Notes: a model not told the origin generated them from the letters alone. A stretch of 64,000 bases of DNA from Halanaerobium saccharolyticum subsp. saccharolyticum DSM 6643 (GCF_000350165.1 NZ_CAUI01000005.1:434001-498000), one strand, 5' to 3'. Shown: positions 36,087 through 59,604, counted from the first letter of the stretch. Translations and numbers: made by a program.

Positions 36087-36091
36087 AAAAT

Positions 36092-37369
36092 TTGGATGCA
36101 ATTGCAGTAATCGATATTAAAAATTCAATTGTGGTAAGGGCAGTGGCTGGCAAAAGAAATAAATATAAAGAGGTTGAAAGTAGAATTTTGGCTAAAGATG
36201 AGAAGAGCCCACTCGAAGTTGCTGCTGTTTTTTATAAGAAGTTGGGAATTAGAAAAATCTATATAGCTGATTTAGATGCAATTTTAGGTAATGGAAGTAA
36301 TTTAGAAGATGTCAAAGAAATTAAAGAGCAATATCCTGACTTAGAAATAATTCTGGATGCTGCTTTTGCTGAAAATAACTCTCCAATACCTTATTTAAAA
36401 GATTTTTTAGACTATGCAGTTATAGCTACGGAAACAGCTGCCAGTTTTTCTTTTTTAAAAGAGCTAGAAGAATTTAATTCTAGAATTATAATTAGTATAG
36501 ATTTAAAAGCAGGAAATTTAATTCATAATATTAAACAGTGGCAGGATAAAAATTTAGAAGATATTATAAGTGAGTTAACTAACTTTGGTATAGAAAACTT
36601 TATTATACTCGATTTAGCCACTGTTGGGACTGCTGCTGGCATTTCAAAATATATAAAAGAACTTAAATTAAATTTTCCTAAGCTGAATTTTATTACAGGT
36701 GGAGGAGTTAAAGATTATAGAGATATTAAAGAATTAAAAAGAATGAAATTTTCCGGAGTGTTAATTGCTTCAGCTTTTCATAATGGCTCAATTGGGAAAA
36801 GAGAAGTTGCTTTAATTGAAAATGATGATGTATTATATCAAGCTGCTTGGTGTATTACTGGGGCTGGTCATTTGCTTGAGGAAAGTATCAGCGAGATAGA
36901 AAAAATTTTGGCAGAACATAAAAAATTGAAAATTGATATCTACTTAAGTAAAGCCGCTTTTGAGGTTTTAAAAATCTATAAATATTACCATCGTTTAGAG
37001 AGTTTAAACTGTGAAATTCATAGAGATAACTCTGCAAGTTCTCCCGTTATTGGGAGAATTTATAAGGGATATTATGATTTATTAATATCTGCACCAACAA
37101 CTTCAAACACAGCTGCTAAATTTGTATTGGGAATTTCTGATACTTTGGTTAGCAACTTATTTGCTCATGCTGGTAAATCAAAGCTGCCAGTGGTAATTTT
37201 ACCAACTGACATAGACGAGAATCTTGTCTCAGCTGCTCCTGATAAAGAAGTTGATGTTTTTCCAAGAGAAATTGATTTAAAAAACACAGAAAAATTATCA
37301 CAAATGGCTGATACAATTGTAATTTCGAAGCCAGAAGAGGTGGAATCATGCTTAAAAGAATATTTATAA
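36092..37369 (+). CDS. HisA-like domain fused to dihydromethanopterin-reductase-like flavoprotein (DmrB type)
   Basis: 425 residues from TTG 36092 (SD AAAGGGAG 8 bases before). Residues about 1-235 form a HisA-like TIM barrel of the kind found in H4MPT gene clusters (IYIADLDAILG, IISIDLKAG, FITGGGVKDY). Residues about 245-425 are an FMN flavoprotein domain: AAWCITGAGHLLEES, SPVIGRIYKGYYDLLISAPTTSNTAAK, ILPTD; this matches DmrB and archaeoflavoproteins. DmrB reduces dihydromethanopterin to H4MPT. In methylotrophs I know the two parts as separate genes, so the fusion is notable. The HisA-like function in this pathway is unknown. Confidence 0.75.
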   Translation: MDAIAVIDIKNSIVVRAVAGKRNKYKEVESRILAKDEKSPLEVAAVFYKKLGIRKIYIADLDAILGNGSNLEDVKEIKEQYPDLEIILDAAFAENNSPIPYLKDFLDYAVIATETAASFSFLKELEEFNSRIIISIDLKAGNLIHNIKQWQDKNLEDIISELTNFGIENFIILDLATVGTAAGISKYIKELKLNFPKLNFITGGGVKDYRDIKELKRMKFSGVLIASAFHNGSIGKREVALIENDDVLYQAAWCITGAGHLLEESISEIEKILAEHKKLKIDIYLSKAAFEVLKIYKYYHRLESLNCEIHRDNSASSPVIGRIYKGYYDLLISAPTTSNTAAKFVLGISDTLVSNLFAHAGKSKLPVVILPTDIDENLVSAAPDKEVDVFPREIDLKNTEKLSQMADTIVISKPEEVESCLKEYL

Positions 37370-38745
37370 CAGGCAAGCTTGCTTATCCATCTTTAAAAAA
37401 AACATTATCCAGATTAAATTTAAATTTTGACTATCAAATTTTAAAAATGCCAATCACAGTGGCTGCGTTAATGGATAGTGAATTTATTATTAGAAATTTA
37501 AAAAAATCTGAAATCATTAATTTAGATAATAATTCTGAATTAGAAATAATTTTACCTGGTCGTTCTCAGGCTGAAATAGAAAAAGTAAAGACAGCAATTA
37601 AGAATAATAAACTAAAATTTACTAAAGGTCCGGAAGAAATTATTGATCTACCAGAGTTTTTTGGCAAAAAAGAGGCTAAAATAGATTTTAGTCAAGAAAA
37701 AAGAGGCCATAAAATTATTGCTGAAATTAATGAAGCCGCTTTATTGGATTTAAATGAAATAATAAAAATTGCCGACTATTATCATCAGAGTGGAGCGGAT
37801 ATAATTGATCTTGGATGTGTAAATGGGCGGGAGTTTCCTCATCTAGAAGAAGTAATTTATTCTCTAAAAACAAGAGATTATAAGCTTAGTATAGATACTT
37901 TTAATCAGGATGAAATAATTAGAGCTTCTAAAATGGGTATTGATTATTTATTAAGTATAAATAGTCATAATATTGAAGCTTTAGATTACGAAGTTAGTTA
38001 CTTACCGGTAATTATTCCAGATCCTGAGCAGGGAAATTTAAATTCTTTATTTAAAAATATTAAAGAAGTAGAAAAAAGGGGATTAAATAATTATATAGTA
38101 GATCCGATACTTGACCCGGTAAATTTCGGCTTCAGTCAATCTCTTTTTAGATATTTAAAATTAGCTGAAGATAAAAATAATAAGCAAGATATGATGATGG
38201 GGGTTGGTAACTTAATTGAGTTAAGTGATTGTGATAGCACTGGCTTAAATTTTTTAGCTGCAGCTTTGGCAGTAGAGTTAGATATTAAATATCTTTTAAC
38301 AACTGAAGCCTCTTTTAAAACTCGAGGTGCAGTTAAAGAATTAGATCTGGCCCTTAAGATTATTTCTTATGCTGATCAGGAAAATAGTCTTCCTAATAAT
38401 TTATCTAATCTACTGCTTAGTCTCAAAGATAGAAAAGATAGAAATTACAGTAGAGAAGAGGTTAAAGAAATTAAAGAATCAATTACAGACAGCAATTATA
38501 GAATTTTAAATGATGGAGAAGCAATTAATATTTTTAATGCTCATGAAAATTATAGAGGTAAAAATATTGGAGAACTATTTTCTAAGCTAAAAAATGCTGA
38601 AGATGCATCTCATGCTTTTTATCTTGGTAAAGAACTTCAGAAAGCATACACTGCTTTAAATTTATCTAAAAATTACCGACAGGAAGATGAACTTAACTGG
38701 GGTTATTTAAATTCTAATTTTAAGGAGCAAAATAATGATAATTGA
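37348..38745 (+). CDS. Dihydropteroate-synthase-like protein of H4MPT clusters (DUF6513 + DHPS-like)
   Basis: 465 residues. The N-terminal 110 residues (IFITGKLAYPSLKKTL, ILPGR) match the DUF6513 region, followed by a DHPS-like barrel (about 115-400: GHKIIAEINEAALLD, GADIIDLGC, LSIDTFNQDEI, ILDPVNFGF, MMGVGNLIELSDCD). Archaeal relatives (TIGR00284 type) are candidates for condensing the pterin with the aryl-ribose phosphate of methanopterin. A bona fide folP is also present at 56879, so this one is probably not for folate. Overlaps neighbours at both ends. Confidence 0.82.
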   Translation: MLKRIFITGKLAYPSLKKTLSRLNLNFDYQILKMPITVAALMDSEFIIRNLKKSEIINLDNNSELEIILPGRSQAEIEKVKTAIKNNKLKFTKGPEEIIDLPEFFGKKEAKIDFSQEKRGHKIIAEINEAALLDLNEIIKIADYYHQSGADIIDLGCVNGREFPHLEEVIYSLKTRDYKLSIDTFNQDEIIRASKMGIDYLLSINSHNIEALDYEVSYLPVIIPDPEQGNLNSLFKNIKEVEKRGLNNYIVDPILDPVNFGFSQSLFRYLKLAEDKNNKQDMMMGVGNLIELSDCDSTGLNFLAAALAVELDIKYLLTTEASFKTRGAVKELDLALKIISYADQENSLPNNLSNLLLSLKDRKDRNYSREEVKEIKESITDSNYRILNDGEAINIFNAHENYRGKNIGELFSKLKNAEDASHAFYLGKELQKAYTALNLSKNYRQEDELNWGYLNSNFKEQNNDN

Positions 38746-39313
38746 AACAGTAATAACAACAGTTAACTCAAATGGTAAGATTAATTTTTCAGCAGTTGGA
38801 GTTGAATTTTCTAAAAGCAGAGCGATATTTAATCTTTATAAAAAAAGCAATACTGTTTTAAACTTAGAAATAAAAGATTATGGAATAATCAATATAGTTG
38901 ATAAAGCCGAATATTTGATCAAAGCTGCTTTAAGTTCAGAAAAAATGGATATTTCTAAACTTAAAGAAAATGACTTATATTATTTAAGTGACTGCTGCAG
39001 CTATTATCAGTTTAAAGTATTAGAAATTAAAGATTGTGGAGAAAAATATCAAGTTGAAGTAAAAATATTAACAAAAAAAGAAAATAGAAAATATATAGGA
39101 TTTAATCGAGCTAACAATTTGCTGCTGGAAGCCGCAGTTATTGGATCTAGAATAGGGATCACAAAAGATAAAAGTGATTTAATTAATTTTTTAAATGATA
39201 ATAAAAGAGTAATTATTAAAACAGGAAACACAAACACAGAAAAAACATTAGCTTTTCTAGAAAAGCAATTAGAAAATAATAATTTCAATAATAGGAGTGA
39301 TAATCTTGATTGA
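38735..39313 (+). CDS. DUF447 family protein
   Basis: 192 residues with SD AAGGAG 6 bases before ATG. The start IIETVITTVNSNGKINFSAVGVEF is typical of DUF447, a family recurring in archaeal genomes and methylotroph H4MPT clusters. The fold is expected to be a split-barrel FMN-binding type; no cofactor residues can be shown here. Exact reaction unknown. It overlaps both neighbours (DHPS-like protein and mptG), supporting a role in methanopterin formation. Confidence 0.75.
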   Translation: MIIETVITTVNSNGKINFSAVGVEFSKSRAIFNLYKKSNTVLNLEIKDYGIINIVDKAEYLIKAALSSEKMDISKLKENDLYYLSDCCSYYQFKVLEIKDCGEKYQVEVKILTKKENRKYIGFNRANNLLLEAAVIGSRIGITKDKSDLINFLNDNKRVIIKTGNTNTEKTLAFLEKQLENNNFNNRSDNLD

Positions 39314-40289
39314 AGTTAAAACTCCAGCTAGAATACATTTTGGACAGTTAGATCTTAATGGAGCTTTGGGAAGAGTGTATGGAGGTACAGGAGCAGCAAT
39401 TAAAAAACCATATACATTAATTAAACTGGAAAAAAGCGATGAAATTAAAGTTGAAGGTTTTAAAAGTGAGAAAAATAAAATTATAATAGTAAAATTTTTA
39501 AATAAGCTGAAGCAGAGAAAATTAATAGCTAAAGATTATGGAGTTAAGATAAAAATCGAAAAACTTCTTCCTGCACATAATGGACTTGGTTCAGGAACTC
39601 AATTTGGCTTGGCAGTAGCTGAAGGAATAAATAGGCTCTATAATTTAAATATGGAGCCAAAAGAACTTGCTGAGATAGTAGATCGCAAACACAGCCGTTC
39701 AGCAATTGGCTTTGGTGCTTTTTATCAAGGTGGATTTATAGTTGATGCAGGTAGACCAATTTCAGAAAAAAATAATGATGATTATTTACCTCCTATAGTT
39801 TATCGTAAAACTATACCTTCTGATTGGACATTTTTAATAGTGATTCCAGTTACTCAAAAAGATAAAATGGCCGGTAAAAAGGAAATAAAGACTTTTAATA
39901 AAATTGAGCGAATGTCAGTAGAAAAATGTGCTGAAAATTCTCATCATTTAATTATGGGGATGCTGCCTGCTATAGAAGAAAAGAATATAAATGAGTTTAG
40001 CAGTCATTTAAATATAATTGAAGATAATGCTGCAGATTATTTTTCTAAAAGTCAAGGAGGGAAATATAGCTCAATCTATGCTCAAGAAATTATAGATTTC
40101 ATGGTTGAGAATGGGGTATTAGCTAGAGGTCAGAGTTCCTGGGGACCTGCATTATATGGATTGGTAAAAAATGATTATAAAGCGCTTCAAATAAAAGAAA
40201 AATTAGTGGATGAATTTTCAAATAAAATTGAAAAAATATATTTAACTAAAGCTGCAAACAAAGGTGCTGAAATAAATAATATTGTATAA
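39306..40289 (+). CDS. mptG: Beta-ribofuranosylaminobenzene 5'-phosphate synthase
   Basis: 327 residues from TTG 39306 (SD AGGAG 8 bases before). It belongs to the GHMP superfamily: KTPARIHFGQLDLNG at the N-terminus, the glycine loop AHNGLGSGTQFGLA, and RSAIGFGAFYQGGFIVDAGRP; all are hallmarks of RFAP synthase. It condenses PRPP with p-aminobenzoate (releasing CO2 and PPi), the first committed step to methanopterin. This gene is a specific marker that H4MPT or a close relative is made. Last gene before the 426-base gap holding the sigma-54 promoter. Confidence 0.9.
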   Translation: MIEVKTPARIHFGQLDLNGALGRVYGGTGAAIKKPYTLIKLEKSDEIKVEGFKSEKNKIIIVKFLNKLKQRKLIAKDYGVKIKIEKLLPAHNGLGSGTQFGLAVAEGINRLYNLNMEPKELAEIVDRKHSRSAIGFGAFYQGGFIVDAGRPISEKNNDDYLPPIVYRKTIPSDWTFLIVIPVTQKDKMAGKKEIKTFNKIERMSVEKCAENSHHLIMGMLPAIEEKNINEFSSHLNIIEDNAADYFSKSQGGKYSSIYAQEIIDFMVENGVLARGQSSWGPALYGLVKNDYKALQIKEKLVDEFSNKIEKIYLTKAANKGAEINNIV

Positions 40290-40377
40290 AATCTAAACAC
40301 TGTATTAAAATTAAACATAATTTTTAAAAGTTATTTTAATAATAAAAATATTCACAATATATAACGCTAAATATCAT

Positions 40378-40387: not shown

Positions 40388-40419
40388 GGCTTGAATAAAT
40401 TTTAAGCATAAGTTGTTTT

Positions 40420-40435
40420 TGGTATGGTTTATGCA
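40420..40435 (+). promoter_or_regulatory. Sigma-54 (-24/-12) promoter
   Basis: TGGTATG-GTTT-ATGCA: GG at 40421-40422 and GC at 40433-40434 are 10 bases apart, the invariant spacing of the TGGCAC-N5-TTGC consensus. Expected start near 40446. It is the only large intergenic gap in the C1 block and precedes the catalytic genes; an activator gene and rpoN flank the block. Confidence 0.75.
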
Positions 40436-40715: not shown

Positions 40716-42203
40716 ATGGCAGCTAATAAAAAAATTGCTAAGAAAATGATTGATGAGGCAGTAGCGGCTCAAATGGCTGATGTTGGTGTATTTAAAGAAA
40801 AAAGAGGTAAAAAGTTTAAGATTAGTGATGCTAAGCCTTATGTAGATGCAGTTAAAAACATGAAAGCTATTGAAGGCCAGTCAAAAGAAGTTATAGACCT
40901 CCATGTTGAGTCTGTGAAAGCTCATTATGAAATACTTAAAGACCTGACAGATACAATTGCTCCTAAAGATGATCCTTTTGTAGAGCATTATCAAACACCT
41001 CCAATTCTAGAAATTTTATATGAAGAAGATCCAGAATTCCGCAAAGCAGCAGAAAAGTTCATGGAGCAGTTAAAGAATGATGAAGCATTAATTGCTAGAG
41101 AATCAATGCGCAGATATGGCGGAATGTATGGACCAACTTGTGTAGTAGACTTTGCTTTCAGTCCTGGCTCAGTTAGTAATGTTGTTAATGAAGTACTTAA
41201 AAATACTGATATTGATGGCGACTATAAGAAGACTTTACTTGCAGCTAAATCCTGGGGAATGAATACCTCTTATGGTATTGGTGGAGCCTTTACCGAAGCT
41301 GTTGAAGCAGGTAAAACTGCAGCAGAAGCAGCAGAAGCAGAAGTAAAAACTATGCAGATGCTTTATGATACTCCTGTAGATGCACAGGTTAAATTAATGG
41401 AAGATGCTGGTATGGACTCATTTGATTGTAGAGAGTACATGAAGCGTTATAAAGAATGGATGAAACCATTTGTTCTGGCTGCAAAAGAAGCTGGAGTTCA
41501 TCCTGGAAATATAGTTGTAGTTCCTGCTTACTGTGTTGGTGATGTTGGACACCACATCGCTCAGTCAACATTTAACATGCTTAAAGATGATGTTAACATG
41601 GAAATTGTAGAAGTTGTTTCTCATGTTATGAAAAACACATTAGAAAGAGGACTAGATAAAGGTTATGACAGTCTCTATGATATTTTAAGTGTTGCAACAG
41701 GCTCTACTGCAGCAGCAGTTAGTTCAATGTTGTGGGACGAAGGATTTACAGCGCCAATGATTATAGATCTTCTAACTAAGAGATTCCATAACTATGTTAA
41801 CTTAAATCCTGCTAGAGGCCAGGCAGCAGAACTGCATAACGTTGATTTTATGGATATGATACACCGTGGTGATAAGATAATTGATGATGAGCCAATAGGT
41901 GCTGGCTGTAAAGTTAAGGGTATAGATGTTGATTTTGGTCCTATCAAAAATAGTTATGTACTGCAGAATACACAGGATTATGCTTATCCTGCTTGTTCAA
42001 TTTCTGTTAAGTTCTCATCCTTAATGCGTCTTGCTGACTTCCCATGTCTATTGACAAGTGAACCAGTTACTGCTACTTTAATGACTAACATTATTGCTCT
42101 AGACCCTGGTTCAGTAGTGGCACCAGCACGTTACTGTAAAGACTGTGCAGTATGTATGTATGTTAAAAAGCATAAGCACTGTAACTGGAAAGACACTGTT
42201 TAG
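40716..42203 (+). CDS. DUF2193 family protein, first gene of the catalytic C1 operon
   Basis: 495 residues with a strong SD (AAAGGAGG). I recognise it as DUF2193, known to me mainly from methanogens, with no assigned function. No signal peptide or membrane helix. Conserved-looking elements: RESMRRYGGMYGPTCVVDFAFSPGS split over the first half, AKSWGMNTSYGIGGAFTEA, VVVPAYCVGDVGHH, and a cysteine-rich end ARYCKDCAVCMYVKKHKHC that could bind a metal or Fe-S cluster. Codon use and Ala/Gly content suggest high expression. It follows the sigma-54 promoter and precedes mtdB, so an enzyme that supplies or uses the C1 unit is a reasonable hypothesis. Confidence 0.65.
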   Translation: MAANKKIAKKMIDEAVAAQMADVGVFKEKRGKKFKISDAKPYVDAVKNMKAIEGQSKEVIDLHVESVKAHYEILKDLTDTIAPKDDPFVEHYQTPPILEILYEEDPEFRKAAEKFMEQLKNDEALIARESMRRYGGMYGPTCVVDFAFSPGSVSNVVNEVLKNTDIDGDYKKTLLAAKSWGMNTSYGIGGAFTEAVEAGKTAAEAAEAEVKTMQMLYDTPVDAQVKLMEDAGMDSFDCREYMKRYKEWMKPFVLAAKEAGVHPGNIVVVPAYCVGDVGHHIAQSTFNMLKDDVNMEIVEVVSHVMKNTLERGLDKGYDSLYDILSVATGSTAAAVSSMLWDEGFTAPMIIDLLTKRFHNYVNLNPARGQAAELHNVDFMDMIHRGDKIIDDEPIGAGCKVKGIDVDFGPIKNSYVLQNTQDYAYPACSISVKFSSLMRLADFPCLLTSEPVTATLMTNIIALDPGSVVAPARYCKDCAVCMYVKKHKHCNWKDTV

Positions 42204-42242
42204 TTAAACAGAAATAAGGATCTAATTAAATAAATGTTTGTT

Positions 42243-42270
42243 GAAGACAGTGGTTTTTTCCACTGTCTTC
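42243..42270 (+). other. Perfect hairpin with T6 loop between DUF2193 gene and mtdB
   Basis: GAAGACAGTGG pairs exactly with CCACTGTCTTC (11 bp) around TTTTTT. No T-run follows. It sits 24 bases before the mtdB ATG, most likely as an mRNA processing or stabilising element that sets the ratio of the two products. Confidence 0.75.
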
Positions 42271-42293
42271 ACAAATTATATAGGGGTGTAAAA

Positions 42294-43151
42294 ATGAAAA
42301 AATTATTAATTCAGTTAGATACTGATAAAAGAGCCAGCACCTTTGATCAGGTAGTTGCTTATGATGCTGGAGCAGATAAATTAATAATTCATTCGGGAAT
42401 TACAAAAGAAGAAGTAGAAGATATAATTTATGGAGCTATTTTTACCCGCTCACCTAAGAAAATGAAAAACACAGCAGTTTTCGTTGGGGGGTCTGATGTT
42501 GAAAAAGGTGAAGAAATTTTGAAAGCAGTAGAAGATGTTTTTTTCGCTAATTTTAGAGTTTCTGTACTTTTAGATTCTAACGGCTCAAATACTACTGCTG
42601 CAGCTTCAGTTCTAAAAGTGAAAAGAGAAATTAGTTTAGAAGGGACTGAGGTTTTAATTTTAGCAGGTACTGGTCCGGTTGGTGTTAGAGCAGCAGCACT
42701 TTTTGCAATGGAAGGAGCTTCAGTAACTATCACTTCCCGCAGCCAGGAAAAAGCTGATAGAAAAGCTGAAATGATTATGGAAGAATATGCTCTTGAAAAT
42801 ATTAAAGGAGTGGAAGCAAACACTGATCAAGATTTTATAAAAGCTATGAAAAATAAAGAAGTTATTTTATCTGCAGGACCTCCAGGGATTAATTTTATCA
42901 GTAAAGATATGTGGGAAAATGAAGAAAACATAAAAGTTATGGCTGATATCAATGCAGTTAGCCCTGCTGGAATAGAAGGAATAGAGCCTAATGCTGATGG
43001 CGAAACACTAGATGGAGTAAAGATTTTTGGTGCCTTAGGTATTGGGGGCTTAAAAATGAAACTGCATAAAAAAGCTGTTGCTGAATTATTTAAGAGTAAT
43101 GATAAAATTTTAAATGCTGTGGAAGTCTATAAATTAAATGAAAAACTGTAA
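42294..43151 (+). CDS. mtdB: NAD(P)-dependent methylene-tetrahydromethanopterin dehydrogenase
   Basis: 285 residues from ATG 42294 (SD TAGGGGTG; an upstream ATG at 42234 would read through the hairpin). N-terminus KKLLIQLDTDKRASTFDQVVAYDAG, split here, matches MtdA/MtdB; the Rossmann motif is ILAGTGPVGVRAAALFA, followed by TSRSQEKA (a possible NADP-selecting Ser/Arg). ADINAVSPAGIEGI and GALGIGGLKMKLHK are typical of the C-terminal part. It interconverts methylene-H4MPT and methenyl-H4MPT. Bacterial-type, not the F420-dependent archaeal enzyme. Its end overlaps the ATP-grasp gene. Confidence 0.9.
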   Translation: MKKLLIQLDTDKRASTFDQVVAYDAGADKLIIHSGITKEEVEDIIYGAIFTRSPKKMKNTAVFVGGSDVEKGEEILKAVEDVFFANFRVSVLLDSNGSNTTAAASVLKVKREISLEGTEVLILAGTGPVGVRAAALFAMEGASVTITSRSQEKADRKAEMIMEEYALENIKGVEANTDQDFIKAMKNKEVILSAGPPGINFISKDMWENEENIKVMADINAVSPAGIEGIEPNADGETLDGVKIFGALGIGGLKMKLHKKAVAELFKSNDKILNAVEVYKLNEKL

Positions 43152-44406
43152 AAACACAAATTTAATTATAACATCTTTTTCCAGCAGAGCAGCAGCAGAA
43201 TGTTTTTCAACTTTTAAAAATCTAAATATATATTGCTTTGATTTTTTTGGAGACCTTGATTTAAAAGAAATTGTTGACTATTCATTTTCTTTAAAAGAAA
43301 AAAAGCTGGTTTTTAAAACAGAAGAATTATATAAAGCAATAAAAAAATTTTTGGTTCAAAATAAAAATCAAAATTATTATTTGATTTATGGTTCTGACTG
43401 GGATAATCATCCAGAACTGCTTTATAAATTAGAACAATTTGAAAATCTAAAACTCAGGGGTAATTCAGCAGCAGTTATTTCTAAATTAAATAAAAAAGAA
43501 AGTCTGAAAAATTTATTTCAAATAGCTGAAAATTTTGGCTTTAAGACCCCTGAGTTGTTTTTAAGTCACAAAAAAATAATTAATTTTCAGAGGCAAGCAA
43601 AAAATGATTTTTTGATCAAGCCTTATCATAGTGGTGGCGGCTTAGAGATAAAAACAATTAAAGAACTGAAAAATAAAGAAAAAAAATTTAAAGATATTTT
43701 CACTAAGAAAAAAGATGATTTTTATCTGGAAGAATTTATTGAAGGAGAAAATAGGTCCTGTCAATTTGCAGCTGATGGCGAAAATGCTGAAATAATGGCT
43801 TTTACAAGAGAACTAAAAGCAGCTGAAGTTAATCCATATTTGAAAAAAAGTTTTAAATATGCAGGTAATATTTTAATAAAAGAAGAAAAAAAAGAAATAG
43901 AAATTATAGAAAAATTTATTAAAAATATCACCAGCAGATATTCACTGCAGGGGATTAATGGAATTGATTATATAAAAAATAATCAGGGAATATTTTTTAT
44001 AGAGTTAAACCCTCGGTTTACAGCAGCAGTAGAACTTTTAATTCCATTTTTTCAAGAAGATTTTCTTAAAATATATTTAAAAAATGAAGTAGCCAATGAT
44101 TATTTGATAAAATATTTACAAAAAGATTTTGCTTTTTCTACAAAATTAATTTATTATGCTGAGCAAAATTTTAAACTAAAGCATGATCTTAGAAAAATAT
44201 TTCAAAGAATTAAAAATAACAAAATAGCTAATAATTTTATTGATTCTAAGATTGAAATTAAGGATTTACCGATAAAAGGAGAAAAATTTGATAAAGGCGA
44301 TCCTGTTTTTACTCTAATTATTAAAACTAAAAATAAAAATTGCTATCTGGAAATAAAGAATTTGCTTTTTTCTGAGTTTGGAAAATATTTTAAAGAACAA
44401 AGTTAA
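43138..44406 (+). CDS. ATP-grasp ligase of the H4MPT/methanofuran cluster
   Basis: 422 residues; ATG 43138 overlaps the mtdB stop. ATP-grasp signatures: KLNKKESLKNLFQIAENFGFKTPE for the pre-grasp part, DFLIKPYHSGGGLEIK (ATP Lys), YLEEFIEGENRSCQF, GINGIDYI and FIELNPRFTAAVELL (Mg2+ Glu/Asn). Similar uncharacterised ATP-grasp proteins occur in methylotroph H4MPT clusters. It would join a carboxylate to an amine, for example adding glutamate to a cofactor side chain. The weak SD suggests translation coupled to mtdB. Confidence 0.78.
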   Translation: MKNCKNTNLIITSFSSRAAAECFSTFKNLNIYCFDFFGDLDLKEIVDYSFSLKEKKLVFKTEELYKAIKKFLVQNKNQNYYLIYGSDWDNHPELLYKLEQFENLKLRGNSAAVISKLNKKESLKNLFQIAENFGFKTPELFLSHKKIINFQRQAKNDFLIKPYHSGGGLEIKTIKELKNKEKKFKDIFTKKKDDFYLEEFIEGENRSCQFAADGENAEIMAFTRELKAAEVNPYLKKSFKYAGNILIKEEKKEIEIIEKFIKNITSRYSLQGINGIDYIKNNQGIFFIELNPRFTAAVELLIPFFQEDFLKIYLKNEVANDYLIKYLQKDFAFSTKLIYYAEQNFKLKHDLRKIFQRIKNNKIANNFIDSKIEIKDLPIKGEKFDKGDPVFTLIIKTKNKNCYLEIKNLLFSEFGKYFKEQS

Positions 44407-44468
44407 ATAATAGTTATAGCACATATCAGCAGTTATAGGCGATTAAAATGAGAGGGGGAGGGTTGAAT

Positions 44469-50446: not shown

Positions 50447-50493
50447 TTTTTTAAGTAAAAAATAATAACTTGAAAAGCATAGGGGGTAATTTA

Positions 50494-51379: not shown

Positions 51380-52324
51380 ATGCCTTTAAGCGATATAGAA
51401 ATAGCACAGGCTGTTCAAATTGCATCTTTATTGGAAGCTAGTGCAGCAAAACCTGGTAATGTTTATCCAACTAAAAATTTTAAAGATTTAAATTATCATC
51501 ATTTTTTATACAGCTCAGCTGCTGTGTTTCCAGCATTTTTAAATCTGGAAAATAAATCAGTTGGAAAAATAATATTAGAGGGAGTTAAGCAAACCCATTC
51601 TTTTATCAAAACAAATACCAATTTAGGTATTCTACTTTTAATAGCTCCCTTGGCAGCAGCTTATGCTGGCCTACGAAAGAAAAATTTAGTAAAGACTGAT
51701 AATAAAGAGGAATTAAAACAGCTTCTGCAGCAGGAAATAAGTCTTATTTTAAATAACTTAACCAGAAAAGATGCAGAACTAGCCTATGAGGCAATTAATT
51801 ATTCTAAAGCAGGGAATCTGGCTGAAGTTGAAGATGGAGATATTAAGGATAGAGTTGAATTGACTCTCTATCAAGCAATGAAACTTGCTCAAAATCGAGA
51901 TCAGATTGCAGCAGAATATGTCAATGATTTTAGTTTTACTTTTAATTTTGCCTATCCAGTTTTCAAAAAAAATCAAAAAAAATTTTCTAAGCTTAATGAT
52001 GTAATAATCCAAAGTTATTTAGAAATTTTAGCTGAGCAGCCCGACACTTTAATAGCTAGGAAATGGGGTAATGATTTTGCTGTTGAAATTTCTGAGAAGA
52101 CAAAAAAACTTTTAAATAAATTAAAAAATATTACAGATTATAAAATTAGAAAACAAGAAATCCAAAAATTTGATAAATATTTAAGGTCAAAAGAAGAAAA
52201 AATTAATCCAGGAACTACAGCAGATTTTACAGCAGCAGTTATATTTTTAGAAATTTTAATTTCAGGCAAGGAAATTATAGCTAACTGGGCAAACTGGGGG
52301 GATGTTAATAATGGATCAATTTAA
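51380..52324 (+). CDS. Triphosphoribosyl-dephospho-CoA synthase-like (CitG/MdcB family) protein
   Basis: 314 residues. LLEASAAKPGNVYPTKNFKDL and GVKQTHSFIKTNTNLGILLLIAPL are CitG-family motifs (compare SxxxKPGxVxP and NTxxGxLL). CitG normally makes the prosthetic-group precursor of citrate lyase, but no citrate or malonate lyase gene is here; family members recur in methylotroph H4MPT clusters with unknown role. Ribosyl transfer chemistry in methanopterin synthesis is a plausible guess. Overlaps the MptA-like gene by 14 bases. Confidence 0.82.
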   Translation: MPLSDIEIAQAVQIASLLEASAAKPGNVYPTKNFKDLNYHHFLYSSAAVFPAFLNLENKSVGKIILEGVKQTHSFIKTNTNLGILLLIAPLAAAYAGLRKKNLVKTDNKEELKQLLQQEISLILNNLTRKDAELAYEAINYSKAGNLAEVEDGDIKDRVELTLYQAMKLAQNRDQIAAEYVNDFSFTFNFAYPVFKKNQKKFSKLNDVIIQSYLEILAEQPDTLIARKWGNDFAVEISEKTKKLLNKLKNITDYKIRKQEIQKFDKYLRSKEEKINPGTTADFTAAVIFLEILISGKEIIANWANWGDVNNGSI

Positions 52325-53312
52325 AAGAGATGTTCAAAAAGAGGAACCTCGACTTGTGGTAGGCTTAAATAGAGTTGGTGTAAAAAATATACAAAAAATA
52401 ATCAGAATAAAAAATAATAATAAAGAAAATTTATTTTATTCAACAATTGACATATTTGTAGATTTACTTCCCCAACAAAAAGGGGCGCATATGTCAAGAT
52501 TTGATGAGACTATTACTCAAATAATTGATGAAACAATTCAGAAGAAAGTAATGGTTATAGAAGATTTCGCAACTTATATGGCAGAAATGGCTAGAAAAAG
52601 ACAGAATGCTCATCGAGCAGAGGTCAGGATCAAAGCAAAATATCCTGTAGAAGAAATTGCACCAGCATCTGAGAAAAAAACCCAAAAAATAAATACAATA
52701 ATGGGGAGAGCAGTCAGTACTGAAAATGGCAGCCGACATCTAATTGGAGTAGAAACTAATGGAATGACAGTTTGTCCCTGTGCTCAACAGATGATTAAGG
52801 AATATGCAGAAGATAAATTGGAAAAAGAAGGTTTTACTAAAGAACAGTTGGAAAAAGTTTTTAAACATATTCCTATGCCGTCCCATAATCAGCGTGGAAC
52901 CGGTATTTTAATGATTGGCAGTGAGAAAAAAATTAAGGCTGAAAAATTAGTAAGAATAGTTGAAAATTCAATGAGTAGTAAAGTTTTAGATCTTTTAAAA
53001 AGGGTTGATGAGTTAGAAATTGTAAGAAATGCTCATTTGAATCCTCGATTTGTAGAAGATGTTGTTAGAGAAATGGTAGCACTGACACTTAAAGAATTTG
53101 ATTTTTTAAGTGATGATGACTATTTCTTAGCTAAACAAACAAATTACGAAGGGATTCATAGTTATGAAGTCTATGCGGAAAGAAGTGGAACAATTGGCGA
53201 AATAAAAGAAGAAATAAAAAAAGCTGAAAATGATTATCTAGATGAAGATTATATTATAAATTGTAATAATACCAGTTCAGATGAATGGTTGGAATCAAAT
53301 GGAGGCTGTTAA
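52311..53312 (+). CDS. mptA: GTP cyclohydrolase IB family, MptA-like
   Basis: 333 residues. ATG 52311 is favoured because GGGGGG ends right before the in-frame ATG at 52302. COG1469 family: RVGVKNIQK, KGAHMSRFDETI, MTVCPCAQQMIKEYA and PMPSHNQRGTG. The CPCAQ form and the archaeal-like second half favour MptA (GTP to 7,8-dihydroneopterin 2',3'-cyclic phosphate) over bacterial FolE2. No MptB phosphodiesterase is seen in the window. It may serve both the folate genes downstream and methanopterin. Confidence 0.8.
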   Translation: MDQFKRDVQKEEPRLVVGLNRVGVKNIQKIIRIKNNNKENLFYSTIDIFVDLLPQQKGAHMSRFDETITQIIDETIQKKVMVIEDFATYMAEMARKRQNAHRAEVRIKAKYPVEEIAPASEKKTQKINTIMGRAVSTENGSRHLIGVETNGMTVCPCAQQMIKEYAEDKLEKEGFTKEQLEKVFKHIPMPSHNQRGTGILMIGSEKKIKAEKLVRIVENSMSSKVLDLLKRVDELEIVRNAHLNPRFVEDVVREMVALTLKEFDFLSDDDYFLAKQTNYEGIHSYEVYAERSGTIGEIKEEIKKAENDYLDEDYIINCNNTSSDEWLESNGGC

Positions 53313-53313
53313 T

Positions 53314-54018
53314 TTGAAATTATTAATTAGTATCAAAAATACAGAAGAAGCTTCAATAGTAAAAGATAGCAAATTTGATATTTTAGACATCAAAAATCCT
53401 GCTGAGGGTTCACTTGGAGTTAACTTTCCCAGTGTGATTAAAGAAATTAAGGAAAAATCGCCAAATAGAATTATTAGTGCGGCTGGAGGTGATCTGCCAG
53501 GACTTCCAGGTTTAACTTCGCAGATTACCTTTGGGCTGGCCCATTTAAAGCCTGATTATATAAAATTAGGCTTTTATAATTTTAATGAACTTAAAACAGC
53601 TGTAAAAATTATTAATGAGGCAAAAAAGGCCATTAAATTAAGTGCTGCGCCAGTCAAGTTAATAGCAGCAGCTTATGGAGATTATAAAAAAACCGGCAGT
53701 TTTAATCCTTTTTTATTAAATGACTTGGCCTTTAATACTGAATTAGATGGCATAATGATCGATACAATTGATAAAAGCGGCAAAAACTTATTTGATTTTC
53801 TTAATCCAGGCGAGCTTAAAGATTTTTGTCTGCAGGCAAAAAAAGCGGAGGTTTTTAGCGCCCTGGCTGGTTCTTTAAAATTTGATCACATTGATCTTTT
53901 AAAAGAAATTAAGCCTGATATTATTGGGTTTAGAGGTGCAGTCTGTAAAAATAATGATAGAAGTTCTAAAATTAATGCAGATTTAATCAATAAGCTTTAT
54001 CAAAAAATCCAGTCTTAA
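53314..54018 (+). CDS. mfnB: Methanofuran biosynthesis (5-formylfuran-3-yl)methyl phosphate synthase
   Basis: 234 residues from TTG 53314 (SD GGAGG 8 bases upstream, 1 base after the mptA stop). The N-terminal LLISIKNTEEA, ILDIKNPAEGSLG and the central AAGGDLPGLPG are the MfnB/DUF556 signature; DYIKLGFYN and GIMIDTIDKSGK follow in a TIM barrel. MfnB condenses two glyceraldehyde-3-phosphates to the furan core of methanofuran. A clear marker that the methanofuran head group is made here. Confidence 0.9.
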   Translation: MKLLISIKNTEEASIVKDSKFDILDIKNPAEGSLGVNFPSVIKEIKEKSPNRIISAAGGDLPGLPGLTSQITFGLAHLKPDYIKLGFYNFNELKTAVKIINEAKKAIKLSAAPVKLIAAAYGDYKKTGSFNPFLLNDLAFNTELDGIMIDTIDKSGKNLFDFLNPGELKDFCLQAKKAEVFSALAGSLKFDHIDLLKEIKPDIIGFRGAVCKNNDRSSKINADLINKLYQKIQS

Positions 54019-54044
54019 ATAACTTAAATATGAGGTTGTTAGAA

Positions 54045-55133
54045 ATGGGAAAATATAAAATTATTGGTTGGGATATTGGTGGAGCCAATATCAAAGCTAC
54101 AAAAATAGTTTATAGTAAAAGACAAAATAAAATAGAATCAGTTTTATCAACCAGCAAATATTTTGCTATGTGGGATAAAAATCAAAATCCGTTAGAAGTT
54201 GTAGCAGAAATTTATCAAAATTTTAAGGAAGCAGATTATTTTGCTATTACAATGACTGCAGAATTAGCTGATAGATTTTCTACAAAAATTGAAGGAATCA
54301 ACTTTATAATTGATCTATTCAAAGATAATTTTGAGGATAAAAAAATTTATTTTTATAACAATCAAGCCGAATTTTTAAAAGCTGAAAAATTGAAAGATAA
54401 TATAGAAAAAAGTTTGAGTCTGGCTGCAGCAAATTGGACTGCCTCTGCGTCTTTTTTAGCAGAATTTAAAAAAGATTTTATTTTATTTGATATGGGCAGC
54501 AGTACTATTGACTTAATTCCAGTTATAAATAATAAAATTGCAGCTCTAGGTACAACTGATGTAGAAAGATTAAAACAGGGAGAGCTGATATACCATGGTT
54601 TTTTAAGAAGTAATTTAAGCAATTTAAGCAGCAAGCTACCGTATCAAGGTCAGATGATAGATGTTATTAATGAGTATTTTGCAGCTACTGCTGATCTACA
54701 TTTGCTTAAAGATATTATAACTTCAGCAGAATATACTATTAGACCAGCAGATGGTGGTCTAAAAAGTAAAATGGCAGCTGCTTCTAGGATTGCAAGAATG
54801 ATCAGTCTTGATCTTAACTCAATTACCGACAGTCAGCTTAATTTAATTATTGACTACATTTATAATCAAGAAATTTCATTAATCTATAATAAATTACTGC
54901 AGCTCTATTCAAGAGCATCTCTTAATTTGCAAATCCCCTTATTAATTAATAGTGAAGCTGCTCATTTTAAAAATGATTTAAAGATGAGAAGCAATTTTAA
55001 ATTTTTAGAACTGGCAAAGCTGATTCCAGTTCTTGATAATAATATTTTAACTACTACCTCAATCGCATCTTTATTATTAAAAAAGATTATTGGAAAAGAT
55101 TTAGTGAAGGTAGTGAGGTTAAATGATGAGTAA
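54045..55133 (+). CDS. mfnF: H4MPT-linked C1 pathway hydantoinase-like protein, MfnF candidate
   Basis: 362 residues from ATG 54045 (SD TGAGGT). Actin-like ATPase motifs at the start, IGWDIGGANIKATKI, then MTAELADRFSTK, FILFDMGSSTIDLIPV and GTTDVERLKQGEL, match the hydantoinase/oxoprolinase-like family annotated as H4MPT-linked C1 transfer protein (TIGR03123). I think it corresponds to the MfnF step that joins the furan moiety to gamma-glutamyl tyramine, but that link is from memory. It overlaps the MfnE-like kinase gene. Confidence 0.75.
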   Translation: MGKYKIIGWDIGGANIKATKIVYSKRQNKIESVLSTSKYFAMWDKNQNPLEVVAEIYQNFKEADYFAITMTAELADRFSTKIEGINFIIDLFKDNFEDKKIYFYNNQAEFLKAEKLKDNIEKSLSLAAANWTASASFLAEFKKDFILFDMGSSTIDLIPVINNKIAALGTTDVERLKQGELIYHGFLRSNLSNLSSKLPYQGQMIDVINEYFAATADLHLLKDIITSAEYTIRPADGGLKSKMAAASRIARMISLDLNSITDSQLNLIIDYIYNQEISLIYNKLLQLYSRASLNLQIPLLINSEAAHFKNDLKMRSNFKFLELAKLIPVLDNNILTTTSIASLLLKKIIGKDLVKVVRLNDE

Positions 55134-55788
55134 TTTAACAGTATTAAAAATTGGGGGTAGTTTTATTAATCAGCAAAATTTAAAGGAATTAAAAATAATT
55201 ATAAAGGCTATAAAAACCACTAACAAGCATAAATTAATAATTGTAACTGGTGGAGGTCAAGCTGCAGACTTTGTTCGAGGCTATGATAAAAAAGTACAAT
55301 TAAAGGCCAGCAGTTCACATTTTGCAGCAGTTGCAGCTATGGAATTAAATGCCTATATGATTTCAGATTTTTTTGATGATTTTTCTTTTTTTTCAACAGA
55401 ATTTGTTTTTAGCAAAAAAATAAATGTTTTTTTAGGTTTGGATTATTACAGAGAAATTGACCCACTTCCACATTCCTGGAATGTTAGCTCTGATAGTATT
55501 GCTTTAGAGCTAAGTCAGAGATTAAAAGCAGATAACTTATTTTTAATTAAACAGAGAACAATGAAAAATAATTTGGAAATAAAAAGTCAATCTGCAGCCG
55601 ATAATAAACTTATAGATAGCTATTTCCCAAAACTTTATCAAGAGTTAGATGGTAAACTAAAAACTCTTATTATCAATACTAAATCAATAAAAAATCTAAA
55701 GATATTAATCGAAAACACTGAAGCTGAAATCTTAAATAAAGCTTTAAATTTAAAAAGAGAAAATTTTGATTTAAATATCTTAGAATAA
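55126..55788 (+). CDS. mfnE: Amino-acid-kinase family protein, MfnE-like
   Basis: 220 residues; ATG 55126 (or 55123) just after GTGAGGT. Amino acid kinase motifs: VLKIGGSFI, LIIVTGGGQAADFVR, and HSWNVSSDSIALELSQRLKAD. MfnE phosphorylates aminomethylfuran methyl phosphate to the diphosphate, and family members sit in H4MPT clusters. UMP-kinase-like or isopentenyl-phosphate-kinase-like roles are less likely given the neighbours mfnB and mfnF. The reading is shorter than archaeal relatives by perhaps 20 residues. Confidence 0.78.
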   Translation: MSNLTVLKIGGSFINQQNLKELKIIIKAIKTTNKHKLIIVTGGGQAADFVRGYDKKVQLKASSSHFAAVAAMELNAYMISDFFDDFSFFSTEFVFSKKINVFLGLDYYREIDPLPHSWNVSSDSIALELSQRLKADNLFLIKQRTMKNNLEIKSQSAADNKLIDSYFPKLYQELDGKLKTLIINTKSIKNLKILIENTEAEILNKALNLKRENFDLNILE

Positions 55789-55850
55789 AAGCTAAAGCAT
55801 TTTTAAATAACTTAAATTTTAGTAAAAAAATTAATTACTGAGGTGTAAAT

Positions 55851-56864
55851 ATGGCGAACTATGATAAAATTGATGCCTTATTAATTGGTCTTGCTCTCGG
55901 GGATGCTCATGGAATGCCTTTTGAAATGTTAAACAGAGAAGATGTAAAAAAACATAAAGAAAACACTAATTTTAATTTGACTGAAAACTTTTTTGTGGAT
56001 ATTCCAGATTTTCATTTTTTAAAACGTGATTTAAAAAAAGCTGAAGTAACAGATGATACAATACTGGCTGTTCATTTGGGTGAATATTTGTTAGAAAACA
56101 AGGGTGAAATTAATAAAGAAGATTATTTCAGCCATTTAGCAGAATTTATTAATGATCAGAAATTAATTACAAAAGGAGTAATCGGGCCCAGTACTGGTAG
56201 AGCTGCTAGCAAAATCAGGCGTAATGAGAAATTTACAGTTTCAGAAAGAGCAGGCTTTTCAAATGGGTTGGCTGTTAAATCAGCAGTTTTAGCATATATT
56301 TTATCTTTAAAAGATAAAAAGTCAAATTTAGAAAAAATTAAAGAATTAGCTTATTATTCTCACTTTACAGATACAGCTATTGCAGCTGCAGCTGGTATTT
56401 ATGCTGCTCTTGCTGAAGCACTTGCAGGTAGTAATCTTGATCAAATATTTGCTTCAGTATTTAGCTATATGGAAGCTGGAGAAAAATATGGACTCCAGAC
56501 ATTTCAACCTTCGAGTTATAAAAGAACAAAATTTTTACTTGAATATATAGATACTTTAACTAAAAATGAATGTTTAGATTTTATTGCCGATGTGATGGGA
56601 ACTGGTATTAATAGTTACGAATCAGTACCAGCTGCATTTGCTATTTTCAAACTTTATCCAGAAGATGCTGCTAAAGCTTTTGCAGCAGCAGTTGATATTG
56701 GAGGAGATACAGATTCTACAGCAGCACTTGTTGGTGCTTTAGTTGGAGCTCATAATGGTCTAGCAATCTTTGAAGATAAATGGATTGAAGAACTTGAGCA
56801 AGTTAATTCAATGTCTTTAAAAGAATTAGGAAGATCTCTTGTTGCTTTAAGAGAAAATAAATAG
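55851..56864 (+). CDS. ADP-ribosylglycohydrolase family protein
   Basis: 337 residues. Family motifs with the di-Mg site are intact: GLALGDAHGMPFEM, EVTDDTILAVHLGEYL, HFTDTAIAAAAGIYAALAE and DIGGDTDSTAALVGALVGAHNG. Such enzymes remove ADP-ribose from proteins or small molecules (for example DraG). None of the known C1 pathway steps needs one. It is between mfnE and folP with its own SD (GAGGTG), so it may act on ribosylated intermediates or regulate an enzyme; both are guesses. Confidence 0.85.
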   Translation: MANYDKIDALLIGLALGDAHGMPFEMLNREDVKKHKENTNFNLTENFFVDIPDFHFLKRDLKKAEVTDDTILAVHLGEYLLENKGEINKEDYFSHLAEFINDQKLITKGVIGPSTGRAASKIRRNEKFTVSERAGFSNGLAVKSAVLAYILSLKDKKSNLEKIKELAYYSHFTDTAIAAAAGIYAALAEALAGSNLDQIFASVFSYMEAGEKYGLQTFQPSSYKRTKFLLEYIDTLTKNECLDFIADVMGTGINSYESVPAAFAIFKLYPEDAAKAFAAAVDIGGDTDSTAALVGALVGAHNGLAIFEDKWIEELEQVNSMSLKELGRSLVALRENK

Positions 56865-56878
56865 GTGAGGTGCTCAAG

Positions 56879-57742
56879 ATGACAGAAAATAATAAAATAA
56901 TTAAAACAAATCGTGGTAATTTAGATTACAGCAGTAAAACATTAATTATGGGGATTTTAAACATAACCCCGGACTCTTTTTCAGATGGTGGTAAATATAA
57001 TGATTTAGAATCGGCGCTTATCAGAGCAAAAAAAATGGAGAATGCTGGTGCTGACATTATAGATATTGGAGCAGAATCTAGCAGACCATATTCTGACAGA
57101 ATATCTGCTGAAGAAGAGAAAATGAGGCTGCTTCCGGTTTTAAAAGAAGTCTTAAAGGTGACAACTGTACCCATTTCTATTGATAGCTATAAAAGTTCAG
57201 TAGTTAGAGCAGCTCTTAAAGAAGGAGCATCTATAGTTAATGATATAAGTGGTCTTCGTTTTGATGCGAAAATGGCTGAAACAGCAGCTGAATTCTCGGC
57301 ACCAGTAATTATTATGCATATTCAGGGAAGACCAGAAACCATGCAGGATAATCCAAGTTATCAAAATTTAATTTTTGAAATTAAAGAATATCTTTGGGAT
57401 GGTATAAAAATAGCTAAGGAAGCGGGAATAGCAGATGATTCAATAATTATTGATCCAGGAATTGGATTTGGCAAAGAACAGCTCCATAATCTTCAAATTT
57501 TAAATAGACTTGAGAGCTTTAAAGAATTAAATTATCCAATTTTAATTGGAACTTCCCGTAAATCTTTAATTAACTATGTAAATAAGAATGAAGTTAATGA
57601 AAGATTGTTTGGTACTGCTGCAACTGTTTCTACTTCTATAATAAAGGGAGCAAATATTGTTCGTATTCACGATGTTGCTGAAATTAAAAAAGTGGCTGTT
57701 ATGACAGATGCCGTTAAGTGGGAGGGTAAACATGGAAAGTAG
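56879..57742 (+). CDS. folP: Dihydropteroate synthase
   Basis: 287 residues from ATG 56879 (SD AGGTGAGG). MGILNITPDSFSDGG, IDIGAESSRP, ISIDSYKSSV, IVNDISGL, IIMHIQGRPETMQ, IIDPGIGFGK, LIGTSRKS and RIHDV are all in place, so it is a standard bacterial DHPS (7,8-dihydropterin diphosphate plus pABA). It begins a folP-folB-folK group, so folate genes are embedded at the end of the H4MPT cluster. The end overlaps folB. Confidence 0.95.
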   Translation: MTENNKIIKTNRGNLDYSSKTLIMGILNITPDSFSDGGKYNDLESALIRAKKMENAGADIIDIGAESSRPYSDRISAEEEKMRLLPVLKEVLKVTTVPISIDSYKSSVVRAALKEGASIVNDISGLRFDAKMAETAAEFSAPVIIMHIQGRPETMQDNPSYQNLIFEIKEYLWDGIKIAKEAGIADDSIIIDPGIGFGKEQLHNLQILNRLESFKELNYPILIGTSRKSLINYVNKNEVNERLFGTAATVSTSIIKGANIVRIHDVAEIKKVAVMTDAVKWEGKHGK

Positions 57743-58112
57743 AGATCTTATTGCCTTAAATCAAATGGTTTTTTATGCCTATCACGGGGTATATGATTCC
57801 GAAAAAGAGTTGGGACAAAGATTCATTATAAATTTTAAGGCAGAACTTGATTATGAGCAAGCTGCAGTAAATGATGATCTAGAGCAGACTGTTAATTATG
57901 GTGAAGTATATATAAAAATTGAAGAGATTTTTAAAGCTAAAAAATATAATCTTTTAGAAAGCGCTGCTTATAATATTATAAAAGGATTATTTATTAATTT
58001 CCCCAGCTTAGAATTTATAGAAATAGAGATAAAAAAACCAGCGGTGCCAATTGAAGGAGTTTTAGCTGATGCAGCTATCAAAATGAGCAGAAAAAGAACT
58101 GAGGTAATATAA
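57732..58112 (+). CDS. folB: Dihydroneopterin aldolase
   Basis: 126 residues from ATG 57732 (SD GGAGGG; the earlier start at 57708 lies in folP). FYAYHGVYDSEKELGQRF carries the catalytic Tyr/Glu context, NYGEVYIKIEEIF and the KPAVPIEG segment follow. FolB cleaves dihydroneopterin to 6-hydroxymethyl-dihydropterin for folate, and could equally provide the pterin for methanopterin. FolK starts immediately after the stop. Confidence 0.92.
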   Translation: MESRDLIALNQMVFYAYHGVYDSEKELGQRFIINFKAELDYEQAAVNDDLEQTVNYGEVYIKIEEIFKAKKYNLLESAAYNIIKGLFINFPSLEFIEIEIKKPAVPIEGVLADAAIKMSRKRTEVI

Positions 58113-58628
58113 ATGAAATCTGTATACTTAGGTCTTGGTTCAAATATAGAGCCTAAAGTAGAATATTTAAAAAAAGCAGTTGAAAAGTTAGCTGCAGAGC
58201 CTGAAATAATTCTCGAAAAAACTTCATCTTTATATTTAACAAAGGCTTATGGTTATCAAGATCAGGCTGATTTCATTAATGCTGTAGTTTATCTTAAAAC
58301 CTCATTAACTCCAGAAAAACTTTTAAAAACTGTGTTAAAAATTGAAAGTGATTTAGGGCGGGTTAGAAACCAAAAATGGGGGCCAAGAACTATTGATATA
58401 GATATTTTATTTTACAATAAATTAGAATATCAGAGTCAAGATTTAATAATCCCTCATCCGGAAATAAAGAAAAGAGCTTTTGTTCTGATACCGTTAATAG
58501 AAGTAGCAGCAGACAAACTTTTTATTGAAGATGTTAGTATTAAAAAATGGCTGCAGAAATTAGATTACGATCAAGATGAAATTAAATTTTACGATGAATT
58601 TCCAAATATTAATTCAAATAAAAAGTAA
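58113..58628 (+). CDS. folK: 2-amino-4-hydroxy-6-hydroxymethyldihydropteridine pyrophosphokinase
   Basis: 171 residues. LGLGSNIEPKVEYLKKAVEKL, FINAVVYLKT, LGRVRNQKWGPRTIDIDILFYN and IPHPEIKKRAFVLIPL are the HPPK signatures. It activates hydroxymethyl-dihydropterin with ATP for FolP. The gene directly abuts folB. Its 3' end overlaps the convergent minus-strand gene by 20 bases, so the two transcripts run into each other. Confidence 0.94.
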   Translation: MKSVYLGLGSNIEPKVEYLKKAVEKLAAEPEIILEKTSSLYLTKAYGYQDQADFINAVVYLKTSLTPEKLLKTVLKIESDLGRVRNQKWGPRTIDIDILFYNKLEYQSQDLIIPHPEIKKRAFVLIPLIEVAADKLFIEDVSIKKWLQKLDYDQDEIKFYDEFPNINSNKK

Positions 58629-59604
58629 ATTTCATTTTAGAGAGAGCCTCAGGATCTAGCTGCTTTTTATTTTTGGCTAAATCTAGAATTATTTTTGCAG
58701 GATTAGATATTTTTGCTAGTCCAATATAAGAAGAGGTTATCCTGGGGTTAATTTCAAGCAGATAAACTCCTTTTTCATTATATATAAAGTCTATTCCAAA
58801 ATAGCCAGTTAAATTGGGATATTTTTGTTTTATTAATTTTGCAAGCTGATTTAATTTATTTTTCTCTGAAAATTTATAATTTATAGTAGAGCCTAAATAA
58901 GAAAAATTATCTGGATTTATTAGTTGTTTATTAAAACTTAGAATCTGTAATTTTTTTGAATTAGCTGCAATCGATAAACTCCCAGAAACTCCATTTATTA
59001 TTTTCTGGATGATCTGACCTTTATAATCTTCAATACTTAAATTTTTAAATTCTTTTTTTGACTTAATAATTTCAAGTTCAGAGCCGGCACTATATTTGGC
59101 TTTAATAACTGCTGGAAAAAAGTCTCTATCTAAATTAAGATCATTTCTCCCAATTAAATAGCTTTCAGCTAACTTGATAGAAGTGTTTTTGAAATTATTA
59201 TAAAGCAGCCATTTGTCGGCTGCTTTTTTTATGCATTCTGAACTACAGCCTAAATTATTAAGATTTTTAGTTTCCATAATTTTAGTTATTTGATAGAGAA
59301 GATTATTTGTTTCTGGGGCAATGATTAAAAAATAATCACAATTATTTAGATCTAGATTTATAAGTTTTTCAAAGTATGAACTCTGACTCTTGTTACTTGA
59401 AACAATAAAATCAACATTCTTAAAATTATTATCAACTAAACTTATATTATTCTGGTTAACATAAATAGACAGCTTAAGATTTTCAATTTTGGCAAAGGAT
59501 TTAATTAGAGAAGTAAGTATTTGCTTTCCTTCTTTATAAAAAGATTCCTTAAAATTCCTATCTTTTTTTTGACTTAAAAAATATTCTAAAATAAAAATAC
59601 GCAT
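58609..59604 (-). CDS. mfnD: ATP-grasp ligase, tyramine-glutamate ligase (MfnD)-like
   Basis: 331 residues, the only minus-strand gene of the window. MRIFILEYFLSQ opening, FKESFYKEGKQILTSL, NNLLYQITKIMETKNLNNLGCS, ECIKKAADKWLLY, AVIKAKYSAGSELE, GYFGIDFIYNEKGVYLLEINPRITSSYIGLAK (split here) fit archaeal-type ATP-grasp MfnD, which ligates tyramine and glutamate for methanofuran. It converges with folK. MfnA (tyrosine decarboxylase) and MfnC (aminotransferase) are not in the window. Confidence 0.72.
   Translation of the reverse strand: MRIFILEYFLSQKKDRNFKESFYKEGKQILTSLIKSFAKIENLKLSIYVNQNNISLVDNNFKNVDFIVSSNKSQSSYFEKLINLDLNNCDYFLIIAPETNNLLYQITKIMETKNLNNLGCSSECIKKAADKWLLYNNFKNTSIKLAESYLIGRNDLNLDRDFFPAVIKAKYSAGSELEIIKSKKEFKNLSIEDYKGQIIQKIINGVSGSLSIAANSKKLQILSFNKQLINPDNFSYLGSTINYKFSEKNKLNQLAKLIKQKYPNLTGYFGIDFIYNEKGVYLLEINPRITSSYIGLAKISNPAKIILDLAKNKKQLDPEALSKMKFTFYLN

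Follow-up and report, generated by a model that had tools for sequence, protein, structure and literature searches.

Firmicutes were listed by Chistoserdova (2016; PMC5020050) among the bacteria with genes for tetrahydromethanopterin (H4MPT)- and methanofuran (MF)-linked one-carbon (C1) conversion, with citation of the Halanaerobium hydrogeniformans genome and mention of fwdD and an Afp-type reductase. A further study presented 149 bacterial FwdB sequences and argued for their transfer from archaea (PMC10100899). Here, a stretch of 64,000 nucleotides (nt) from the salt-loving fermenter Halanaerobium saccharolyticum subsp. saccharolyticum DSM 6643 (NZ_CAUI01000005.1:434001-498000; the window) was analyzed, in which an intact H4MPT/MF island occupies positions 34,491-60,987; the genome has 2.87 Mb in 23 contigs and is 100% complete. 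Genus and pathway are the same as in the 2016 article, which does not contain the operon, promoter and DUF2193 analyses presented below. A first-pass annotation of the window had considered an old unreported lineage, an idea contradicted by the Firmicutes listed in the first article and the bacterial FwdB reported in the second. The pathway is already known in this clade, and what appears to be undescribed in the literature searched is a variant without Fae, led by DUF2193, controlled by sigma-54 and equipped with a redox-type Fwd complex. We propose, at a probability of roughly 0.55, that the island, carried by about half of the Halanaerobiaceae examined, encodes a two-operon, sigma-54-controlled C1 oxidation system of H4MPT/MF type, with DUF2193 as its likely entry.

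Comparison with described systems revealed that the island shares the gene order mptG-mtdB-ATP-grasp-mch-rimK-citG and an MtdB that is, by sequence, bacterial and NAD(P)-dependent with proteobacterial islands (Azospirillum, Azoarcus, Thiodictyon; Methylobacterium type), and a sigma-54 regulator is also found near the Azoarcus island. Unlike Halanaerobium, these islands have fae and no DUF2193 (fae is usual on proteobacterial mch replicons, DUF2193 was found on none of them, and no plasmid has it), while FhcB of Azospirillum has no Cys at the catalytic position and its fhc cluster lacks FwdD. FwdABCD with the catalytic Cys (selenocysteine in some), Ftr, Mch and DUF2193 are shared with the methanogen pathway, in which DUF2193 is common, whereas Halanaerobium has no F420-dependent Mer, no MfnA-type decarboxylase and a bacterial MtdB. 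The islands of Formimonas warabiya, Desulfosporosinus lacus and Peptococcaceae (L049-L052) have the same activator-DUF2193 ... mtdB-fwdDBA arrangement and sigma-54-type promoter, but differ in the aquaporin gene that follows DUF2193 and, in L049, L051 and L052, in a TGA codon in fwdB that probably specifies selenocysteine.

Gene organization and probable sigma-54-type control

Genes were assigned with NCBIfam/Pfam profiles, and the scores in bits were compared with curated cut-offs (Table 1). The core set of mtdB, mch, ftr, fwdABCD and cofactor synthesis genes scored above, or consistently with, these cut-offs, by which all of the gene content named in the first-pass annotation was verified; its low-GC, anaerobic, Firmicute-like host was likewise borne out (Bacillota, Halanaerobium). 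The block, given there as 36,092-59,604, is real but begins at 34,491, and DUF2193, the sigma-54 activator, rpoN, an ADP-ribosylglycohydrolase-like gene and folP-folB-folK were absent from or unnamed in that list. Neighboring genes overlap or are separated by at most 62 nt, with the single exception of a 426-nt gap at 40,290-40,715, 5' of DUF2193, and the island therefore consists of two transcription units.

For promoter scoring, GG-N10-GC sites in the region upstream of DUF2193 were rated from 0 to 12 against TGGCACG-N4-TTGCA. A site scoring 8-12 was present in 17 of 17 bacterial DUF2193 loci with an adjacent activator gene, and the score was at least 9 in 15 of these 17, as compared to 0.33 expected by shuffling; such a score was reached in 0 of 6 bacteria without activator and in 4 of 65 archaea. 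When both strands of the island were scanned, TGGTATGGTTTATGCA at 40,420 was the sole site scoring at least 9. The activator gene of Bacillota islands is located at the island head or just before DUF2193. A -24/-12 promoter, a cognate activator and rpoN, which together define a sigma-54 regulon, were all found at the sequence level. These results point to a catalytic operon under a sigma-54-type promoter and activator, that is, an inducible system, and the substrate-sensing type of the activator, together with the promoter, suggests catabolic induction.

DUF2193 and the proposed C1 entry step

The distribution of DUF2193 includes many methanogens (Methanosarcina acetivorans among them), Archaeoglobus, Methanoperedens, Bacillota, Synergistota, Chloroflexota and one actinomycete, and its phylogenetic tree placed most bacteria apart from most archaea. 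In a phylum sample of 398 Bacillota genomes, 10 of which have an H4MPT island, DUF2193 was present in 8 of these 10 and in 11 of the 398 overall (P ~5e-13, kinship ignored). Mch was found in 16 of the 18 genomes with named DUF2193 loci, the remaining two being metagenome-assembled genomes (MAGs), while Fae was absent in 21 of the 23 bacterial genomes tested, including the window genome and its relatives. An aquaporin gene follows DUF2193 in 56 loci from 31 genus-level groups of archaea and several bacteria; DUF2193 as half of a corrinoid methyltransferase pair was rejected, because the 250-amino-acid neighbor is this aquaporin and not a corrinoid protein. In two Anaerolineae MAGs, both with Fae (L056, L057), DUF2193 is followed by a short-chain dehydrogenase/reductase (SDR) gene and then by an aldehyde ferredoxin oxidoreductase-like gene, as judged from the start of its sequence.

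The AlphaFold2 model of DUF2193 was helical and confident (predicted local distance difference test score 90). A Foldseek search of the PDB with this model returned no match with E <0.1, and the best VIA-align result (Z 5.0, 124 residues) could reflect no more than a shared arrangement of helices and is compatible with a known fold. Numerous His, Asp, Glu and Cys positions are invariant, which suggests a metal site, and cysteines occur at the C-terminus. DUF2193 is likely the first enzyme of the pathway, through which C1 units of a small uncharged donor would enter. More tentatively, and with the odds somewhat against this full form, it may be an all-helical metalloenzyme that loads H4MPT with the C1 unit of a small uncharged compound, often admitted by the aquaporin of the adjacent gene, and so a Fae-independent entry common to methanogens and sigma-54-regulated anaerobic bacteria.

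Formylmethanofuran dehydrogenase and probable selenocysteine

Cys115 of FwdB aligned with Cys118 of M. wolfeii FwdB, and the CxxCxxxC iron-sulfur (FeS) motif is retained; the complex is therefore redox-competent as judged from its residues. Among the relatives, the fwdB genes of G356, G288, Desulfosporosinus, a Peptococcaceae MAG and Formimonas (loci L036, L038, L049, L051 and L052) have an in-frame TGA as the codon of the catalytic Cys, followed 11 nt downstream by a strong hairpin, and read-through would give the full-length protein. The TGA in these five fwdB genes is a probable selenocysteine codon, and the products would be bacterial selenocysteine formylmethanofuran dehydrogenases.

Proposed pathway and alternative explanations

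According to the proposed scheme, the first operon (34,491-40,289) would supply the activator and part of cofactor synthesis, and the second (40,716-58,628) would be transcribed from the promoter at 40,420, with an expected start near 40,447, once the activator senses the substrate. DUF2193 would most likely hand a C1 unit at the oxidation level of formaldehyde to H4MPT, entry at the methylene level following from the absence of F420-dependent Mer. Methylene-H4MPT would then be oxidized with NAD(P) by MtdB, the ring opened by Mch, and the formyl group passed to the furan cofactor by Ftr; FwdA would hydrolyze the formyl-cofactor and FwdBD oxidize the formate to CO2, with electrons probably going to ferredoxin, as expected from the protein families. 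Interconversion of methylene-H4MPT and CO2, as put forward in the first-pass annotation, is supported by the retained catalytic residues, while the oxidative direction, the inducer and the DUF2193 reaction are what we infer. FTHFS is present as well, and folate C1 metabolism is therefore separate.

Several observations weigh against this proposal. The pathway enzymes are reversible, and the sequence therefore does not fix the direction, while the electron-transfer subunits FwdF and FwdG (polyferredoxin) were not found in the island, to which the search was confined. Universal occurrence of DUF2193 in the islands was rejected by wider sampling: G203 and G277, of one genus (L190, L194), have an island without it, and G203 retains the activator and shows two ftr-like matches and no recognizable mtdB near mch. 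Halanaerobium itself has no aquaporin gene. In methanogens and two Anaerolineae, DUF2193 occurs alongside Fae or other C1 routes and is therefore no strict substitute for Fae. Finally, DUF2193 of Methanococcus voltae was up on pyrite and was proposed to be an iron-sulfur binder (PMC9431491); a single paper on DUF2193 was found in the literature searched.

Reductive flow, in which CO2 would be converted to methylene-H4MPT for biosynthesis and DUF2193 would use methylene-H4MPT as donor for a hydroxymethyl product, is considered unlikely. Although archaeal Fwd complexes that contain FwdD and retain the catalytic Cys act as reversible CO2 reductases, and DUF2193 is widespread in methanogens, where flux is reductive, the activator and promoter suggest catabolic induction, folate-dependent C1 supply exists anyway, and half of the Halanaerobiaceae genomes live without the island. 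Equally doubtful is formaldehyde detoxification by spontaneous condensation with H4MPT, which would make Fae unnecessary and leave DUF2193 an ancillary role, e.g., in metal, sulfide or FeS handling. Such a role would fit the C-terminal cysteines of DUF2193 and the link of the protein with growth on FeS2 in M. voltae, but DUF2193 is first in its operon and among its most conserved genes (63-67% identity across Bacillota vs. 41-49% for Mch), and in the genomes tested it nearly always accompanies H4MPT enzymes.

Ancestry, distribution and genome context

The best PDB match of MtdB was the bacterial MtdA of M. extorquens (4.8e-71), and those of FwdB and FwdA were archaeal chains. F420-dependent Mer was not found in 12 bacterial genomes, nor was an MfnA-type decarboxylase (PF00282) in nine Bacillota genomes including that of the window, and the lack of the latter suggests a furan cofactor of the bacterial, tyrosine-based kind, probably of methylofuran type. 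A tyrosine-based methylofuran is known from Methylobacterium. The label "archaeal-type" given in the first-pass annotation thus fits the catalytic Cys and FeS ligands of FwdB, but not MtdB, the gene order or the missing Mer and MfnA-type enzymes.

Recent acquisition of the island from a methanogen is improbable. In its favor, FwdA and FwdB lie closer to their homologues from archaea than to those from proteobacteria, archaea-to-bacteria transfer of FwdB was argued elsewhere (PMC10100899), occurrence within the genus is patchy, and Mch forced to group with archaea was not rejected (approximately unbiased test, p = 0.096). On the other hand, Halanaerobium was the first branch of a bacterial clade in the Mch tree (support 96/81), MtdB is bacterial, the order mtdB-ATP-grasp-...-mch-mptN-citG is common to proteobacterial islands, and GC content and strand skew equal those of the rest of the window. 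Of the transfer suggested in the first-pass annotation, a recent archaeal donor thus receives no support from the Mch tree, although the test against such a donor is weak, while an archaeal source of FwdB has been argued in the literature.

Mch was detected in 6 of 14 Halanaerobiaceae genomes, and DUF2193 in exactly those 6. Searches with all island proteins (tblastn) revealed equal gene order in G006, G007, G010 and G013, and one small contig of G002 carries DUF2193 and mch at least. The joining of two organisms in the assembly, named in the first-pass annotation as what would refute its reading, can be dismissed, since no point in its favor was found, GC is uniform and G007 carries the same island in a single contig of 2,613,117 bp. 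Comparison of island-free and island strains via rpoN (empty site) was uninformative, because rpoN sits elsewhere in island-free strains.

The assumption that every Mch match in the phylum marks an H4MPT user was rejected, as at least 10 loci combine Mch paralogues with an adjacent 2-oxoacid dehydrogenase operon and have no fwd genes. A conserved operon, GntR-SDR-Mch-like-E1alpha-E1beta-E2-Mch-like, was observed in Bacillota loci L043, L044, L045, L189 and L195-L200. Its Mch paralogues (TIGR03120; L043 338 bits, above the cut-off) lie beside a 2-oxoacid/acetoin dehydrogenase-like complex with no H4MPT genes nearby, and form a separate clade in the Mch tree (98/96).

Table 1. Positions (counted from the first nucleotide of the window) and assignments of the island features.
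Feature	Position	Strand	Score or remark
Sigma-54-dependent activator (PrdR/PrpR/DhaR-like AAA+ with Fis helix-turn-helix), 531 amino acids	34491..36086	+	
Fusion of HisA-like (TIGR00734) and AfpA/DmrB-like archaeoflavoprotein	36083..37369	+	
Dihydropteroate synthase-like H4MPT synthesis protein (TIGR00284, DUF6513)	37348..38745	+	
DUF447, role unassigned, recurrent in H4MPT islands	38735..39313	+	
Beta-RFAP synthase (MptG)	39297..40289	+	201 bits, cut-off 113
Sigma-54 -24/-12 type promoter, TGGTATGGTTTATGCA	40420..40435	+	~300 nt upstream of DUF2193
DUF2193 (PF09959), leads catalytic operon; proposed entry enzyme	40716..42203	+	829 bits
MtdB, bacterial-type NAD(P)-linked methylene-H4MPT dehydrogenase	42234..43151	+	Mpt_N 9e-33
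ATP-grasp protein, adjoins mtdB in proteobacteria too	43138..44406	+	conserved
FwdD (molybdopterin dinucleotide-binding domain)	44448..44819	+	
FwdB, Cys115 at Mo/W-ligand position and CxxCxxxC FeS motif	44816..46105	+	508 bits, cut-off 328
FwdA (formyl-MF hydrolase subunit)	46092..47774	+	710 bits, cut-off 393
Ftr formyltransferase	47756..48655	+	405 bits, cut-off 293
FwdC	48555..49502	+	254 bits, cut-off 131
Mch cyclohydrolase	49487..50446	+	372 bits, cut-off 229
MptN/RimK-like alpha-L-glutamate ligase	50470..51357	+	326 bits, below cut-off 350
CitG-like protein, found repeatedly in H4MPT islands of bacteria	51380..52324	+	
GTP cyclohydrolase, MptA/FolE2 type	52302..53312	+	301 bits, cut-off 220
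MfnB (4-HFC-P synthase)	53281..54018	+	
MfnF-like (TIGR03123)	54030..55133	+	265 bits, cut-off 244
MfnE-like kinase	55123..55788	+	
ADP-ribosylglycohydrolase-like protein, role unassigned	55851..56864	+	
folP, folB, folK (pterin steps)	56870..58628	+	
MfnD-like ATP-grasp ligase	58609..59604	-	
rpoN (sigma-54)	59890..60987	+	adjoins island only in window and G006

The ADP-ribosylglycohydrolase-like gene is located inside the Halanaerobium H4MPT operon, and another lies near the island of G376 (L041, near 12.2 kb). Beyond the island, an S-adenosylmethionine (SAM-I, S-box) riboswitch at 61,063-61,166 precedes a gene for a Cys/Met-metabolism pyridoxal phosphate enzyme and then a homoserine O-succinyltransferase family gene; it was the sole passing match of the Rfam scan, which gave none in the DUF2193 leader.

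Conclusion

H4MPT genes in fermenting non-methylotrophs have been noted for a decade, with a role called enigmatic (PMC5020050), and the promoter and activator before DUF2193 make this question directly testable via the inducer and the DUF2193 reaction. If DUF2193 loads H4MPT as proposed, it would establish a new type of C1 use by anaerobes, and a positive result on the inducer and the reaction would give a function to a family conserved in many methanogens.

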